64,000 bases of DNA from Ferrigenium kumadai (lineage in GTDB: Bacteria; Pseudomonadota; Gammaproteobacteria; Burkholderiales; Gallionellaceae), in assembly GCF_018324385.1 (NCBI RefSeq), contig NZ_AP019536.1:2046001-2110000 (forward strand), written 5' to 3'. Position 1 is the stretch's first letter, and the number at the start of each line of letters is the position of its first letter. Made by a program: the position numbers and the translations under genes. Below are positions 12,168 to 56,309 of the stretch, in pieces. Below the pieces are notes generated by a model. That model did not search any database. It saw only the letters and a list, made by a program, of their open reading frames with translations, and was not told the DNA's origin.

Positions 12168-15100
12168 ATGTCCTCCCGTTTCTGGTCCCGCTTAGCACGT
12201 AATTTCCTGCCCGCCGCGCTGCTCATCTGCGCGCTGGGCGGCATCTTTTACGTCAGCGAGTCTTCCGACGATGAGGTCACGCTGATCGAGAACGAGAAGG
12301 ACCATCTCCACGCCGGAGTGGAAACCACCCAGCGGATATTGCTCTCGCTGGCGCGCGATACCCAGTATCTGGCGCATTCCCAGCCCCTGGCGAAGGCCCT
12401 CGCCAATCCCGACGCCACCATGCTCGACAATGCGGCCAGCGACTTCGCCGCGTTCATCGATGCAAAGCGCATCTACAACAAGATACGCTGGATCGATCAA
12501 ACGGGAATGGAGCGGGTGCGGGTCGAATGGGTCGCTGGCAAGGCACGGACCGCCCCCCTCGGACAGACGGAAAACAAACGCCAGCGCTATTACGTCGATG
12601 AAGCGATGAAGTTGAAGCACGGCGAGGTCTACCTTTCGCGGCTCGATCTCGAGATCGAAAACGGCCAGATCGAAAAGCCTTACCATCCAGTCCTGCGCGC
12701 CGCCACCCCGCTGTTCGGGCCGCACCAGCAGCGGCTTGGCATCGCCATCGTCACCTATGAAGCGGAGGACTTGTTCCAGCGCATCGCGCAGGTTGCCAAC
12801 ACTGACGAATCGAACTGGATGCTGCTCGAACAGCAGGGCCATTGGCTGCACAGCCCGGTTGCGTCCGATGAATTCGGTTTCATGCTGTCGGCCCGGCCCA
12901 GCATGGCGGAACGCTATCCGCAGGCATGGAAAAAGATCAGTACCGCATCGACCGGGCACTTCAAGGATGAGGCCGGGGGCCTGTGGCTGTTCGAAACCAT
13001 CCATCCCTATCAGGCAATCGCGGAAGGTGCCGTATCGGACAGCGGGCTGGCTTGGAAATTGGTCAAGCACATCGATGCCGCCACACTTTCCACCTCGCAC
13101 AAATCGATGCGTCGGCAGACTGCCGCCCTCATCGCAATGCTGCTGGCTCTGGCGCTGCTGATCAGCGCAAGCCTGAGCCGTTCGCAACTGAGCCAGGAGT
13201 TGCATGAAACCGAGTTGCATCGCACGCTGAATGAACTCGGCCAGCAGAAATTCGCGCTCGACCAGCACGCCATCGTCGCCATCACCGACGTGCGCGGCAC
13301 CATCACCTACGTCAACGACAAGTTCTGCGCCATCAGCAAATACACCCGGGAAGAATTGCTGGGGCAGAACCATCGCATGCTCAAATCTGGCTACCACGAT
13401 GCCGGATTCTTCCGCGATATGTACCAAGCCATAGTCGGCGGCGAGGTATGGCATGGCGATATCTGCAACCGCGCCAAGGACGGGAGCATCTATTGGGTGA
13501 ATACCACCATCGTGCCGCTACTGGATGAGGGGCACAAACCCAAGGCGTATATTGCGATACGCACCGACATCACCCACACCAAACTGCACGAAGACATGCT
13601 CGAAGAGGCGCAACGTCTGGGCAGGATCGGCCACTGGGAACTCGATCTCACCACCAACCGGCTGACTTGGTCGGACGAGGTATTCAGGATCTTCGAGATC
13701 GACCCGCAACGCTTCGAAGCATCTTATGAATCGTTCCTGGCGCTGATCCATCCCGAAGACCGCAAAATGGTCAACCAGAGCTATCAGGATTCGGTGGCGA
13801 ATCAAGGCGAGTACGATATCGAGCACCGCCTGCAGTTCCCTGATGGACGCATCAAATGGGTGAAAGAGCGCGGCACTACGCACTACGACCAGAACGGCAA
13901 ACCGCTGCTCTCGCTGGGCACGGTGCAGGACATCAGCCAGCAGAAGGCAACCGAGGAAAAGCTGCGCATCGCGGCCATCGCGTTCGAGACCCAGGAAGCG
14001 ATCGTCGTCACCGACGCACAGGCCCGCATCATCAGCGTCAATCGTTCGTTCGAGCGCCTCACCGGCTACACCGCAGCCGAGGCGATCGGCCAGAATCCGC
14101 GCATCCTCCAATCAGGCAAGCACGATGCCGATTTCTACAAGACCATGTGGGAGTCGCTGAGCGAGTATGGCAGCTGGTCCGGCGAAATGTGGGACAAACG
14201 CAAGGATGGCCTGGTCTATCCCAAGTGGCTGAACATCACCAGCGTGCGCAACGAGGAAAACGAAGTCACGCACTATGTGGCGATCTTCATGGATATCACC
14301 GAGCGCAAGCGTGCCGAGGAAGAGATCCATCGCCTCGCCTATTACGATACGCTGACCCAATTGCCGAACCGCCGGCTGTTCATGAACCGGCTCGACCAGG
14401 CCATCAGCGCCAGCCACCGCAGCAGCCAGCACGGCGCGCTGCTGTTCATGGACCTGGACAATTTCAAGATACTCAACGACACCAAGGGGCACGATGTCGG
14501 CGACATGCTGCTGGTCGAAGTCGCCAACCGCCTCAGGTTGTGCGTACGCGAGACCGACACGGTAGCGCGGCTCGGGGGCGATGAGTTCGTGATCCTGCTG
14601 CAAGACCTCAGCAGCAGCGAAATACTGGCGGGCAACCAGGTCAGGGTGGTCGGCCAGAAGATCATCGAGGCCATCAACGCTCCATACATCCTCAAGCAGC
14701 ACGAACACCACACCAGCCCCAGCATCGGCGCCTGCCTGTTCCGCGAGCGCGGCATCTCCGCGGATGAGCTGCTCAAGCGCGCCGATACCGCGATGTATCA
14801 GGCCAAGGCAGCCGGGCGCAATGCGATGCACTTCTTCGAAGCCTCGATGCAGATCCAGCTGGAATCGCGCGCCGCCCTGGAAAAGGAGTTGCGCCACGCG
14901 CTCGCCAAGGACGAGCTCCAGCTCTACTACCAGCTGCAGGTCAACAACAAGCGGCGCATCATCGGCGCCGAGGTGCTGCTGCGCTGGATCAACCCGGAAC
15001 GCGGTTTCATCTCGCCCGCCCAATTCATCCCGCTCGCAGAGGAAACCGGCCTGATCCTGCCCATCGGACAATGGGTACTTGAAACGGCCTGCCAGCAACT

Positions 15101-53278: not shown

Positions 53279-54236
53279 TTCTTTTCTCTTCATAGCGCTC
53301 ATAGGCCGTAACGATCTTCTGCACCAGAGGATGGCGCACCACATCCTCGGCGAGGAATTCGCTGAACGCGATGCCGCGCACATCCTCCAGCACGTGGCGC
53401 GCCTCGACCAGCCCGCTTTTCTGTCCGCGCGCCAGGTCGATCTGCGTGACGTCGCCGGTGATGACCGCCTTGCTGCCGAAACCGATGCGGGTCAGGAACA
53501 TCTTCATCTGTTCCGGCGTGGTGTTCTGTGCCTCGTCGAGGATGATGAATGAGTGGTTCAGCGTGCGCCCGCGCATGTAGGCCAGCGGTGCGATCTCGAT
53601 CACGCCGCGCTCGAAGGCGCGGCTGACCTTCTCCAACCCCATCAAGTCGTACAACGCGTCGTACAACGGACGCAGATAAGGATCGACTTTCTGCGTAAGG
53701 TCGCCGGGCAGGAAGCCGAGTTTCTCGCCGGCCTCGACCGCCGGCCGAACCAACACCAGACGGCGCACCGTCTCGCGCTGCAGCGCATCCACTGCACAGG
53801 CCACGGCGAGATAGGTCTTGCCGGTGCCGGCCGGACCGACGCCGAAGGTGATGTCATGTTCCTGTATCGCCTGCAGATAACTATTCTGGCGCGGCGTGCG
53901 CCCGCGAATCTCGGCCTTGCGCGTCATCAGCAACGGAATGAAGTCATTGGAAGGCTGGGGTTCGGTGCGCCACTTCATCGCCTCGATCAATCCGAGCTGC
54001 AGACGCTCCAGCGTGATGTCGTGCTTCGCCTCGCGGTAGAAATCCTGCAGCACCTCGCGTGCCAGTTCCGCCTGCGCGCCCTGCACGCTGAAGTGCTCGC
54101 CGCGCCGTGCGATGGTAACTTCCAGCGCCGTCTCGATTTGGCGCAGGTTTTCGTCCAGCGGGCCGCACAGGTGCGCCAGCCGCTGGTTGTCCAGCGGCTC
54201 GAGTGCGAATTGCAACGTATGGATCTCTGTATTCAT
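53271..54236 (-). CDS. ybeZ: PhoH-like ATPase (YbeZ)
   Basis: 321 residues. Walker A is VGPAGTGKTYLA, Walker B FIILDEAQNTTPEQMK, with TRIGFGSKAVITGDVTQIDL and GRTPRQNSYLQAI also typical. The N-terminal KH-like region precedes the ATPase. YbeZ works with YbeY in RNA metabolism. ATG 54236 overlaps the miaB stop (TGATG). Confidence 0.95.
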   Translation of the reverse strand: MNTEIHTLQFALEPLDNQRLAHLCGPLDENLRQIETALEVTIARRGEHFSVQGAQAELAREVLQDFYREAKHDITLERLQLGLIEAMKWRTEPQPSNDFIPLLMTRKAEIRGRTPRQNSYLQAIQEHDITFGVGPAGTGKTYLAVACAVDALQRETVRRLVLVRPAVEAGEKLGFLPGDLTQKVDPYLRPLYDALYDLMGLEKVSRAFERGVIEIAPLAYMRGRTLNHSFIILDEAQNTTPEQMKMFLTRIGFGSKAVITGDVTQIDLARGQKSGLVEARHVLEDVRGIAFSEFLAEDVVRHPLVQKIVTAYERYEEKRNA

Positions 54237-55591
54237 CAAGATGCGCTCAATACTAACTCACCACGCAATGTGTGTCTCACCACCTCGGTGATCTTCACCT
54301 CGACGAAGCGGCCGATCATGGCCTGCGATCTGGTTATATCGGGCGAGCCGCGAAAATTCACCACGCGGTTGTTGTCGGTGCGCCCCGCCAGCTCCTGTGC
54401 ATCTTTCTTCGATGTGCCCTCGACCAGCACGCGCTGTACTGTGCCCAACATCGCTTGCGCGACTTCATTTTCCAGTTCCGTGATGCGATCCTGCAAGCGC
54501 TTCAGGCGCGCAGCCTTCACCTCATGCGGGGTATCATCGTGCAGCTCGGCAGCAGGCGTTCCTGGACGCGGGCTATACAGGTAACTGAAACTGACGTCGA
54601 AGCCAACCTCCTCGATCAGCTTCATCGTTGCCTCGAAATCCTGCTCGGTCTCGCCTGGAAATCCGACGATAAAATCCGAAGTGATGCTGATGTCGGGACG
54701 CGCCGCACGCACCTGGCGAATAATGGATTTGTATTCCAGCACGGTGTGGCCGCGTTTCATCGCCGCCAGAACTCGATCCGAACCGGACTGCACCGGCAGG
54801 TGCAGATGACTGACCAGCTTGGGCGTGTTCGCGTAAACATCGATCAGTCGCCGCGTCATTTCCTTGGGATGCGAGGTGGTGTAGCGCAGACGCTCCACAC
54901 CATCCAGCGCCGCGATGGCCTGCAACAGGAACGCGAAATCCACTATGTCGTCGCCGTCGTCGATCGCGCCGCGGTAGGCGTTCACATTCTGGCCCAGCAG
55001 GGTGATCTCCTTCACGCCCTGAGCGACCAACTCCTCCACGTCACGCATCACGTCGGCAAACGGGCGCGACACTTCCTCGCCACGCGTATAGGGCACCACA
55101 CAGAATGTGCAATACTTGCTGCAGCCCTCCATGATGGCAACGAAAGCCGCGCCGGATGCCGTTTCTGCTGACGGCAGATGATCGAACTTCTCGATCTCGG
55201 GGAAGCTGATATCCACCTGCGGCAGCCCGGTTTCGCGCCGCGCCTGAAGGAGCTGCGGCAGTCGATGCAGCGTCTGCGGGCCGAACACCACGTCCACATA
55301 GGGCGCGCGCTTGACGATGGCCTCGCCCTCTTGGCTCGCCACGCAGCCGCCCACGCCGATCAGCAGGCCCGGTTTTGCCTGTTTCAGCGGACGCACGCGC
55401 CCCAGATCGGAAAACACCTTTTCCTCGGCCTTCTCGCGGATCGAGCAGGTATTGAACAGGATGACGTCGGCCTCTTCCGGCTTGTCGGTCTGCTCCATGC
55501 CCTCGCAGGCACGCAGGACATCCGCCATCTTGTCCGAGTCATACTCGTTCATCTGGCAACCGTAGGTCTTTATATAGAGTTTCGTTAACAC
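54236..55591 (-). CDS. miaB: tRNA-2-methylthio-N6-dimethylallyladenosine synthase
   Basis: Radical-SAM methylthiotransferase for A37 of tRNA. 451 residues: N-terminal cluster domain ([48 protein letters not shown]), radical SAM motif [25 protein letters not shown], and C-terminal TRAM domain ([26 protein letters not shown]). The start is GTG 55591, eleven bases after AGGA, because it aligns with other MiaB starts. It heads the miaB-phoH-ybeY-corC unit. Confidence 0.95.
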
Positions 55592-55645
55592 GCTGTATCG
55601 ATTCCTGAATTCCTGAAGATTTCCATCAAACCCGACCTGCTTAAT

Positions 55646-55736
55646 CCACAATTAAATTGTGGGAATTGTCGACAAAAATGCTTGTATAATAAAAAAAGCT
55701 TTAGTCGGCTATTGTCTTTAATTTAGTCAACTATTG
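55646..55736 (+). promoter_or_regulatory. Complex control region of the first small membrane peptide
   Basis: Four elements in order: a perfect dyad CCACAATT-A-AATTGTGG (55646-55662); a perfect 10-base palindrome TTGTCGACAA (55666-55675); TATAAT (55685-55690) with no good -35 at the proper distance; and two direct repeats TTAGTCGGCTATTG (55701-55714) and TTAGTCAACTATTG (55723-55736), 22 bases apart. The first dyad is centred about 43 bases before the expected start of transcription, as for an activator. The repeats each fit the half-site YAGTCRRSTAT of type 1 IscR sites. Confidence 0.6.
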
Positions 55737-55784
55737 CCACCGCAAGTGTCATCAAAACTTAAACACTTTCAAGGGAGAGAAAAC

Positions 55785-55877
55785 ATGTCGATTATTGCAG
55801 ACGTAGCATCTATTGGTACCGCATTGTTCTCAGTTGCATTTGCCGTGTGGATCACCATCCAGCTCTTCAAGAGCTAA
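55785..55877 (+). CDS. 30-residue single-pass membrane peptide, paralogue 1
   Basis: ATG 55785 follows AAGGGAGAGAAAAC and opens 30 codons. The peptide begins MSIIADVASIGTALFSV, continues AFAVWITIQLF and ends KS: a short polar start, one membrane helix of about 20 residues (8-27) and a basic tail. It is 17/30 identical to the 32-residue product 190 bases downstream, which argues strongly that both are real. A complex promoter precedes it and a strong terminator follows. I recognise no family; small subunits or regulators of membrane complexes are the natural comparison. Confidence 0.82.
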   Translation: MSIIADVASIGTALFSVAFAVWITIQLFKS

Positions 55878-55889
55878 GCAGAAACTTAT

Positions 55890-55920
55890 AGCGGGGAGTT
55901 TTTAACAACTCCCCGCTTTC
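55890..55920 (+). terminator. Rho-independent terminator after the first small peptide
   Basis: Perfect 11-bp stem AGCGGGGAGTT / AACTCCCCGCT, 6-base loop, then TTCTCC, starting 12 bases after the stop. Confidence 0.85.
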
Positions 55921-55986
55921 TCCTCTCCAGCCTCCCCCGTTGCCTATGGGTCTACCCATCGGGCTCGCCGTGCATTTACAAAATGC

Positions 55987-56014
55987 TTGCCATAAAAAAT
56001 AACTGTGCTAGGAT
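55987..56014 (+). promoter_or_regulatory. Predicted promoter of the second small peptide
   Basis: TTGCCA (55987-55992), 16-base spacer, TAGGAT (56009-56014) with an extended -10 TGC in front. The surrounding ACAAAATGCTTG resembles ACAAAAATGCTTG at 55672-55684, before the first copy, so the duplication probably included the upstream region. Confidence 0.6.
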
Positions 56015-56067
56015 TCGAATACCCATTTCGTTGTTGTGTTTAACCTAGTTCTCTCGGGAGGAGAAAA

Positions 56068-56166
56068 ATGTCGTACATCGCTGACTTGGTATCAATTGGC
56101 GCTAGCCTGTTTGTTGTAAGCTTTGCTCTGTGGATGGTGAAGCAGCTTTTCACAGACAACAAGTAA
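56068..56166 (+). CDS. 32-residue single-pass membrane peptide, paralogue 2
   Basis: ATG 56068 follows CGGGAGGAGAAAA, a near-ideal ribosome-binding sequence. The peptide begins MSYIADLVSIGASLFVV, continues SFALWMVKQLF and ends TDNK. It shares M-S-x-I-A-D-x-x-S-I-G-x-x-L-F-x-V-x-F-A-x-W-x-x-x-Q-L-F with paralogue 1. One predicted membrane helix with a polar C-terminus. It has its own promoter and terminator, so the two copies can be expressed separately. Function unknown. Confidence 0.83.
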   Translation: MSYIADLVSIGASLFVVSFALWMVKQLFTDNK

Positions 56167-56189
56167 ATCGAAGTTGCACAGCACCAAAT

Positions 56190-56219
56190 AAAAAACTCCA
56201 GCCTAGGCTGGAGTTTTTT
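56190..56219 (+). terminator. Rho-independent terminator after the second small peptide
   Basis: Perfect palindrome AAAAAACTCCAGCCT / AGGCTGGAGTTTTTT. The A and T runs on both sides let it also serve the tRNA gene arriving on the minus strand. Confidence 0.92.
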
Positions 56220-56232
56220 ATTTCTGCTTGTT

Positions 56233-56309
56233 TGGTGGTGATAGGTGGATTTGAACCACCGACCCCAGCATTATGAGTGCTGTGCTCTAACCAACTGAGC
56301 TATATCACC
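56233..56309 (-). tRNA. tRNA-Met (CAT)
   Basis: 77 bases including an encoded CCA. The acceptor stem GGTGATA / TATCACC, D arm AGCTCAGTTGGTTAGAGC, anticodon loop CTCATAA (anticodon complement at 56273-56275), variable loop and T arm GGTTCAAATCC are all well formed. CAT can also be a lysidine-modified Ile tRNA or initiator; the A-U-rich 5' stem end that pairs properly and the lack of the initiator's G-C anticodon-stem triplet favour elongator Met. Confidence 0.93.

Follow-up and report, generated by a model that had tools for sequence, protein, structure and literature searches.

The high-affinity cbb3-type oxidases serve respiration at very low oxygen, and members of the Gallionellaceae inhabit places in which iron is exposed to trace amounts of oxygen. 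Several small proteins have been described as partners of terminal oxidases. CcoQ is a small single-helix protein associated with CcoNOP, and CydX and CioY are helices of about 30 residues attached to an oxidase of the bd type. The accessible portion of PMC10433244 gives CcoM a length of 36 residues, and that of PMC11955535 gives 34 residues for CioY of C. jejuni, which was recognised through conservation and synteny after Ribo-seq.

We identified two tandem genes for short, predicted membrane peptides in a Gallionellaceae genome, within a window of 64 kb (the whole stretch of DNA analysed). From their sequences, the peptides would resemble CcoM in consisting of one short hydrophobic helix, in falling within 30–36 residues, and in depending on a cbb3 oxidase of like type; the CcoN of the window's genome matches the CcoN of 3mk7 and 5djq with an E-value of 1e-201. 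Chain 5djq_N (36 residues) we take to be CcoM of the P. stutzeri cbb3 oxidase. Comparison of this chain with the family profile described below (A1) using hhalign gave a probability of 0.4% over 5 columns, and because there is no detectable sequence relation we do not file the peptides as CcoM. The peptides further differ from CcoM in that they often occur as two paralogues with differing promoters, one of them with IscR-type sites, and in their phylogenetic range. With CcoQ they share small size, a predicted single helix and a putative association with CcoNOP. However, they are not encoded between ccoO and ccoP, where a separate frame of about 55 residues, presumably CcoQ from its place and look, is present in the window's genome and in 54 of 64 cco loci. 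The length of CydX and CioY is similar, but the partner of those proteins is a bd-type oxidase, and the family described here has no NCBIfam or Pfam match to them.

Two tandem genes for single-helix peptides

Copy A (positions 55785 to 55877, MSIIADVASIGTALFSVAFAVWITIQLFKS) encodes a predicted single-helix peptide of 30 residues and copy B (56068 to 56166, MSYIADLVSIGASLFVVSFALWMVKQLFTDNK) one of 32 residues. Both lie on the plus strand with 190 bases between them and are identical at 17 of their first 30 residues, as the first-pass annotation of this DNA had read them. In their own genome, copy A matches the family profile with an E-value of 1.1e-14; the value for copy B is 5.4e-15. The ribosome-binding sequences that had been noted are found immediately 5' of each ATG, AAGGGAGAG at 55771 to 55779 and GGGAGGAG at 56056 to 56063, both on the plus strand. 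A strong terminator had also been claimed after each gene. This holds fully for copy B, where a pattern scan calls a hairpin at 56186 to 56223 with a T run on one side and an A run on the other (z -6.8 for the fold compared with shuffled sequences). For copy A it holds only in part, because the plus-strand hairpin at 55890 to 55925 (z -5.7 on the same measure) is missed by the pattern scan and ends in a short U run.

The pair occupies an AT-rich interval (42% G+C compared with 61% for the window) between miaB (54236 to 55651; TIGR01574 over its cut-off) on the left and a tRNA-Met(CAT) gene (56233 to 56309) on the right. Both of these neighbors are encoded on the minus strand, opposite to the peptide genes, and both are conserved by synteny; the position between miaB and tRNA-Met is kept in many genomes. 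Among named organisms, MiaB has its best match in Gallionella sp. (85%).

A conserved peptide family in the Gallionellaceae

A profile HMM built from 40 relatives (A1) identifies homologues in 61 of the 76 genomes of the genus (E <= 0.01) and in 109 of the 158 genomes of the family, where they are spread over 9 of 15 genera (E <= 0.001). No convincing homologue was found outside the family in samples of 399 genomes from the order and 398 from the phylum. Matches there with E-values of about 1e-3 to 0.1 were rejected, as they are partial and most fall within longer frames.

The A1 alignment shows no variation at M1 or F19 and almost none at I4, A5, T12 and W22. Of the 109 peptide-bearing genomes, 63 supplied a set of 85 peptides; F19 is found in all 85, W22 in 79, and a glutamine or glutamate at position 26 in 83. 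Conservation along the peptide has a helical period, with the best fit at 100 degrees (p 0.04). The single membrane helix predicted in the first-pass annotation agrees with the AlphaFold2 model of copy B, which predicts one helix at residues 3–29 with a mean pLDDT of 89, and the hydropathy maximum is about 2.0 over 19 residues.

The median dN/dS is about 0.3 and the pooled pN/pS 0.42–0.51, both rough values because synonymous sites are near saturation, and the mean entropy at codon positions 1, 2 and 3 is about 0.9, 0.4 and 1.4. Judged by their conservation in related genomes and by this bias toward synonymous change, the two checks that the first-pass annotation had proposed, the two small genes are real and under purifying selection. 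Its view of the pair as a duplicated small-protein gene is also borne out, as 21 of the 63 genomes hold a tandem pair, with 261–301 bases from start to start. The remaining 43 entries are stand-alone at their locus, and one genome (G470; genomes and loci are given below by G and L numbers) has a second copy elsewhere that lies outside the 85-peptide set.

We know of no described family to which the peptides belong, in agreement with the first reading. Profile A1 has no match in PDB sequences at E-values up to 10, NCBIfam yielded nothing firm for the family members (best E 0.034), nothing convincing was found in Pfam, and no description of the family was found among the open-licence papers listed by literature searches on small proteins and cbb3 in Gallionella relatives. 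The Pfam family Phage_Coat_B (best E 3.6e-4, with 5 of 40 members at E <= 1) was rejected as a generic short-helix match.

Distribution of the peptide and of ccoN

The presence of the peptide is closely tied to that of one form of ccoN, which we marked by TIGR00780 at E <= 1e-100 and refer to as the usual ccoN. Across the 158 family genomes, peptide and ccoN occur together in 97, the peptide alone in 12, ccoN alone in 11, and neither in 38 (Fisher p 2e-16, with kinship ignored). All 12 peptide-only genomes are less than 90% complete. When only the 94 good-quality genomes are considered (completeness of 90% or more, contamination of 5% or less), the corresponding counts are 65, 0, 5 and 24, and the peptide is thus found apart from this oxidase in none of the 94. 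A possible exception is G026 (87% complete), which has the peptide and a divergent CcoN, and in which the usual ccoN was not found.

The 11 genomes with ccoN only comprise six in which CcoN belongs to other lineages, three that are incomplete (60–86%), G002 and G543. In a CcoN tree of 64 rows, the first six form two separate groups. Their CcoN is 58–60% identical to that of the window's genome in G435, G469 and G471, 73% in G479 and G480 (with CcoO at 49–50%), and 79% in G494 (with CcoO at 56%). Because the peptide is absent where CcoN belongs to these other lineages, it follows one CcoN lineage and not cbb3 oxidases generally. The five ccoN-only genomes of good quality are G002, G435, G471, G480 and G543. 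The contig of G002 ends inside miaB and carries no information on the peptide site, and G543 is the single clean exception, a genome that is 100% complete, with a CcoN 86% identical and no detectable peptide. In G435, G469 and G471, which belong to one genus, the cbb3 cluster (L218, L219 and L220) has a ccoI-like gene upstream and no peptide.

We searched 15 of the 38 genomes that lack both for a divergent CcoN, together with four controls and G026. A full-length divergent CcoN scoring 225–237 bits is present in 11 of the 15, only short partial matches are found in G019 and G108, and G025 and G052 have no divergent CcoN match. Among the controls with the usual ccoN, this search shows that CcoN alone in G055, G294 and G543. 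Carrying one form does not strictly preclude the other, since the window's genome has an additional, weak CcoN-like match of 228 bits inside a 1033-residue frame (G000:C1:2430167-2431510, L310). The part of PMC10734462 available to us reports that most Gallionellaceae genomes have either a proximal or a distal form of ccoN, and the high-scoring form here is probably the proximal type.

At the miaB site of three genomes that lack both, decayed remnants of the peptide gene can be recognized by eye. The close relatives G019 and G105 retain a promoter, a ribosome-binding site and the first codons, and G472 retains the last codons and the terminator. In G006, G046, G047 and G052, miaB is followed directly by tRNA-Met, and the contigs of G025 and G108 stop inside miaB and are uninformative about the peptide site. 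When 65 genomes are placed on a MiaB tree, the absence of peptide and ccoN together takes 7 changes, compared with 12.0 for shuffled labels, and at least four changes to joint absence are forced by well-supported branches. Peptide distances show a weak correlation with CcoN distances given MiaB (partial r 0.22, Mantel p 0.003) and a partial r of 0.45 with MiaB distances given CcoN, both in 21 genomes.

Linkage of the peptide gene to the cco cluster

In at least 12 genomes the peptide gene and ccoN lie within 6 kb of each other on one contig (G477, G474, G111, G054, G103, G107, G022, G045, G049, G010, G008 and G024); in G024 it is the miaB site itself that is near ccoN. The peptide gene of G477 and G474 is directly upstream of ccoN and has its own promoter and terminator. 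Eleven loci were found away from miaB, and seven of these adjoin ccoN, ccoO or ccoP or SCO-like or UreH/SafE-like genes, which are part of the cluster in relatives. In two of the seven (G050 and G026) the UreH-like gene alone is seen beside the peptide. Neither miaB nor a cco gene was found beside the peptide in G020, G023, G030 or for copy A of G041, with 1.5 kb per side covered for G020 and G030. The tight co-occurrence and the repeated linkage with one cbb3 lineage support, at the level of sequence, the earlier suggestion that the peptides are accessory to a respiratory complex.

In two of the linked genomes, G103 and G107 (L213 and L214), vestiges of the miaB start remain upstream of the peptide, at distances of about 250 and 220 bases, respectively. 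These vestiges score above all 300 shuffles, and a move of the peptide gene from the miaB site to the cco cluster is therefore likely for at least this group. The miaB-like traces in G045 and G049 are within the range of the shuffles, that in G008 is slightly above it but 550 bases off, and no vestige was found in the other nine of the 14 tested.

NCBIfam matches over the cut-offs support the names ccoO, ccoP, ccoG, the copper P-type ATPase (ccoI), Fnr and MiaB. The CcoQ-, CcoH-, UreH/SafE- and SCO-like proteins of the cco loci have no NCBIfam model at an E-value of 1e-5, and these names are our presumptive assignments.

Promoters and IscR-type sites of the two copies

The promoters of the two copies are of different types. 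Copy B is preceded by a candidate promoter at 55987 to 56014 on the plus strand (TTGCCA, a spacer of 16, TAGGAT, with an extended -10 element), for which a scan found one instance with 1.3 expected in shuffles. This extended -10 promoter, AtTGTGCTAcGATTc, is common to copy B and most of the stand-alone genes (62 upstream regions). The promoter of copy A has instead the conserved core ATTcCcGACtAatTtaCTtaTATAAT, seen in 23 rows that include two stand-alone genes of the A kind and in which G060 is misaligned. In the window its conserved -10 box, TATAAT, is at 55685 to 55690, and a weak site resembling type-1 IscR operators overlies the promoter at 55665 to 55689, with 8 mismatches in 25 positions; the site is clearer in relatives. 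Downstream of the -10 box are two IscR-type half-sites, TTAGTCGGCTAT at 55701 to 55712, one of just three genomic matches, and TTAGTCAACTAT at 55723 to 55734, which is identical to a half-site upstream of an iscR-like gene. All these elements are on the plus strand.

The pattern TTAGTCRRCTAT has three instances in the complete genome of the window: one lies 110 bases before the start of the iscR-like gene, and the other two precede copy A. The reversed pattern is absent from that genome. The iscR-like gene scores 203.2 bits, slightly below the TIGR02010 cut-off of 207.55, and the gene that follows it reads like IscS. Across the family, the half-site AGTCRRSTA is found 14 times in the 200 bases upstream of copy A, in 13 of 21 genomes, with the other 8 having no exact half-site, whereas it is found in none of the 21 copy-B and none of the 43 stand-alone upstream regions (shuffle average about 0.15). 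The conserved differences in promoter and half-sites suggest that the copies are separately controlled, as the first-pass annotation had supposed.

We also compared each upstream region with the 25-base type-1 consensus, to which the site of the iscR-like gene has 3 mismatches. A 25-mer with at most 8 mismatches is found upstream of copy A in 21 of 21 cases, of copy B in none of 21, and of the stand-alone genes in 17 of 43; as background, 12 such places occur per strand in the 64-kb window. At a limit of 7 mismatches, the counts are 16 of 21, none of 21, and 9 of 43. The evidence for copy A in the window rests on the half-sites, since its promoter 25-mer is weak. From these patterns, copy A is probably under an IscR-type operator that is common to the iscR-like gene.

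The IscR type-1 consensus is printed in PMC6599224, and the portion of that paper at hand gives the P. aeruginosa iscR sites A and B an identity of 68% and 76% (8 and 6 mismatches) and places one iscR site between -35 and -10. The 16 of 21 copy-A sites with at most 7 mismatches are in a similar range. The putative arrangement here differs in that the target would be a small oxidase subunit and in the extra half-sites downstream of the -10 box. A link between IscR and an oxidase has precedent, because in Caulobacter IscR is reported, in the accessible text of PMC11475020, to act on oxidase operons via fixK.

Many of the IscR-like matches of stand-alone genes lie near -125 of the ATG, upstream of the promoter, for example AAACCCGAGTAATGAAGTCGAATAA in G007, and an element CCGAGYAA...AGTC is conserved at about -125 in the stand-alone genes of G007, G032, G009, G049 and G470. 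Stand-alone genes may thus own an IscR-like element, and given the IscR-like 25-mers in 9 of the 43 stand-alone upstream regions, IscR-type control may not be peculiar to copy A. We looked for FNR-type boxes near the peptides and detected none. In the window's genome, one FNR-type palindrome, TTGATATACATCAA, lies upstream of ccoN (L208:4164), and another, TTGATATATATCAA (L208:14834), immediately precedes the Fnr gene, which is at 14070-14828 on the minus strand.

Possible role of the peptides

We propose that the peptides are exchangeable small accessory subunits of one cbb3 lineage (CcoNOP), probably the Gallionellaceae proximal type, with copy A under the control of IscR, and put the probability of this reading at about 0.6. 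The predicted helix (residues 3–29) would pack against the oxidase, probably against CcoN or CcoP, through a conserved face formed by T12, F19, W22 and Q26. It would stabilize or tune the cbb3 complex in the manner of CcoM in Pseudomonas. The extended -10 promoter would give steady production of copy B, and copy A would be expressed once IscR is released from its operator, as happens when Fe-S clusters are scarce. Fe-S or oxidative stress would then lead the oxidase to exchange one small subunit for the other. More tentatively still, and with considerable doubt, Gallionella-type iron oxidizers might swap a copy B of 31–32 residues for the IscR-controlled copy A when Fe-S clusters fail; that this swap would retune oxygen respiration through cbb3 to iron-sulfur status is an equally doubtful proposal.

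Several observations count against the peptides being subunits. These are the ccoN-bearing G543 without a detectable peptide, the peptide-bearing G026 without the usual ccoN, the loci without linkage to miaB or cco, the weak correlation between peptide and CcoN distances, and the FNR-type box that precedes ccoN while none was found near the peptides. In addition, CcoG, CcoH or CcoI as partners would give the same co-occurrence, since they are encoded in the same cluster. The main alternative is a role in the assembly of this cbb3 oxidase, in which the peptides would act alongside CcoG, CcoH, CcoI, SCO or the UreH/SafE-like protein and would form no part of the finished enzyme. Such factors would be expected to show an equal pattern of co-occurrence, several of the relocated copies adjoin UreH-like and SCO-like genes and not ccoN itself, and two differently controlled copies would fit biogenesis under Fe-S or copper stress. 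However, UreH-like or SCO-like genes are found in only about 12 of 64 cco loci (loci of limited length), and in G477 and G474 the peptide is beside ccoN. We regard an assembly role as unlikely, while giving it serious weight.

It is improbable that the peptides serve another low-oxygen complex, such as bc1 or alternative complex III, and follow ccoN through lifestyle and shared ancestry. The weak partial Mantel signal with CcoN and the many peptide genes that are far from cco would be expected in that case, but the peptide is repeatedly beside cco, is missing where the cbb3 cluster has a CcoN of another lineage, and is absent together with ccoN after at least four forced changes. Short hydrophobic peptides in tandem within an intergenic region also recall type I toxins or stress-induced membrane-depolarizing peptides, duplicated by chance, and in NCBIfam a single member of the 40 weakly matches PepG1 (E 0.068). 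Yet the near-ideal ribosome-binding sites, the conserved promoter, the retention of one locus across many genomes and the tight dependence on one oxidase lineage make a toxin very improbable; in addition, a plasmid search with copy B found no match, and the tRNA is the sole Rfam match between 50 and 60 kb of the window.

If the peptides are indeed accessory subunits of the cbb3 oxidase, a conserved tiny subunit would fill a gap in the respiratory chain of the Gallionellaceae, and any complex rebuilt without the peptide would be missing a part. The tandem pair with one IscR-type promoter would connect Fe-S status to a terminal oxidase in a simple way that can be tested. The approach used here, following how a 30-codon gene decays along with a single oxidase lineage, could reveal similar parts elsewhere.

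Two further variants of the family were observed. Strongly diverged peptides are present at the miaB site of G508 (L248, MSIVTTAIAIVIFFVVIGFALNMIKKLFKSR) and G027 (L230, MAIIADLSTVICVVGLGLFSLWVVQQVLASK), where ccoN is retained. In G116, a weak third match (E 0.046) in a 42-residue frame at G116:C4:21653-21745 is possibly a third paralogue.
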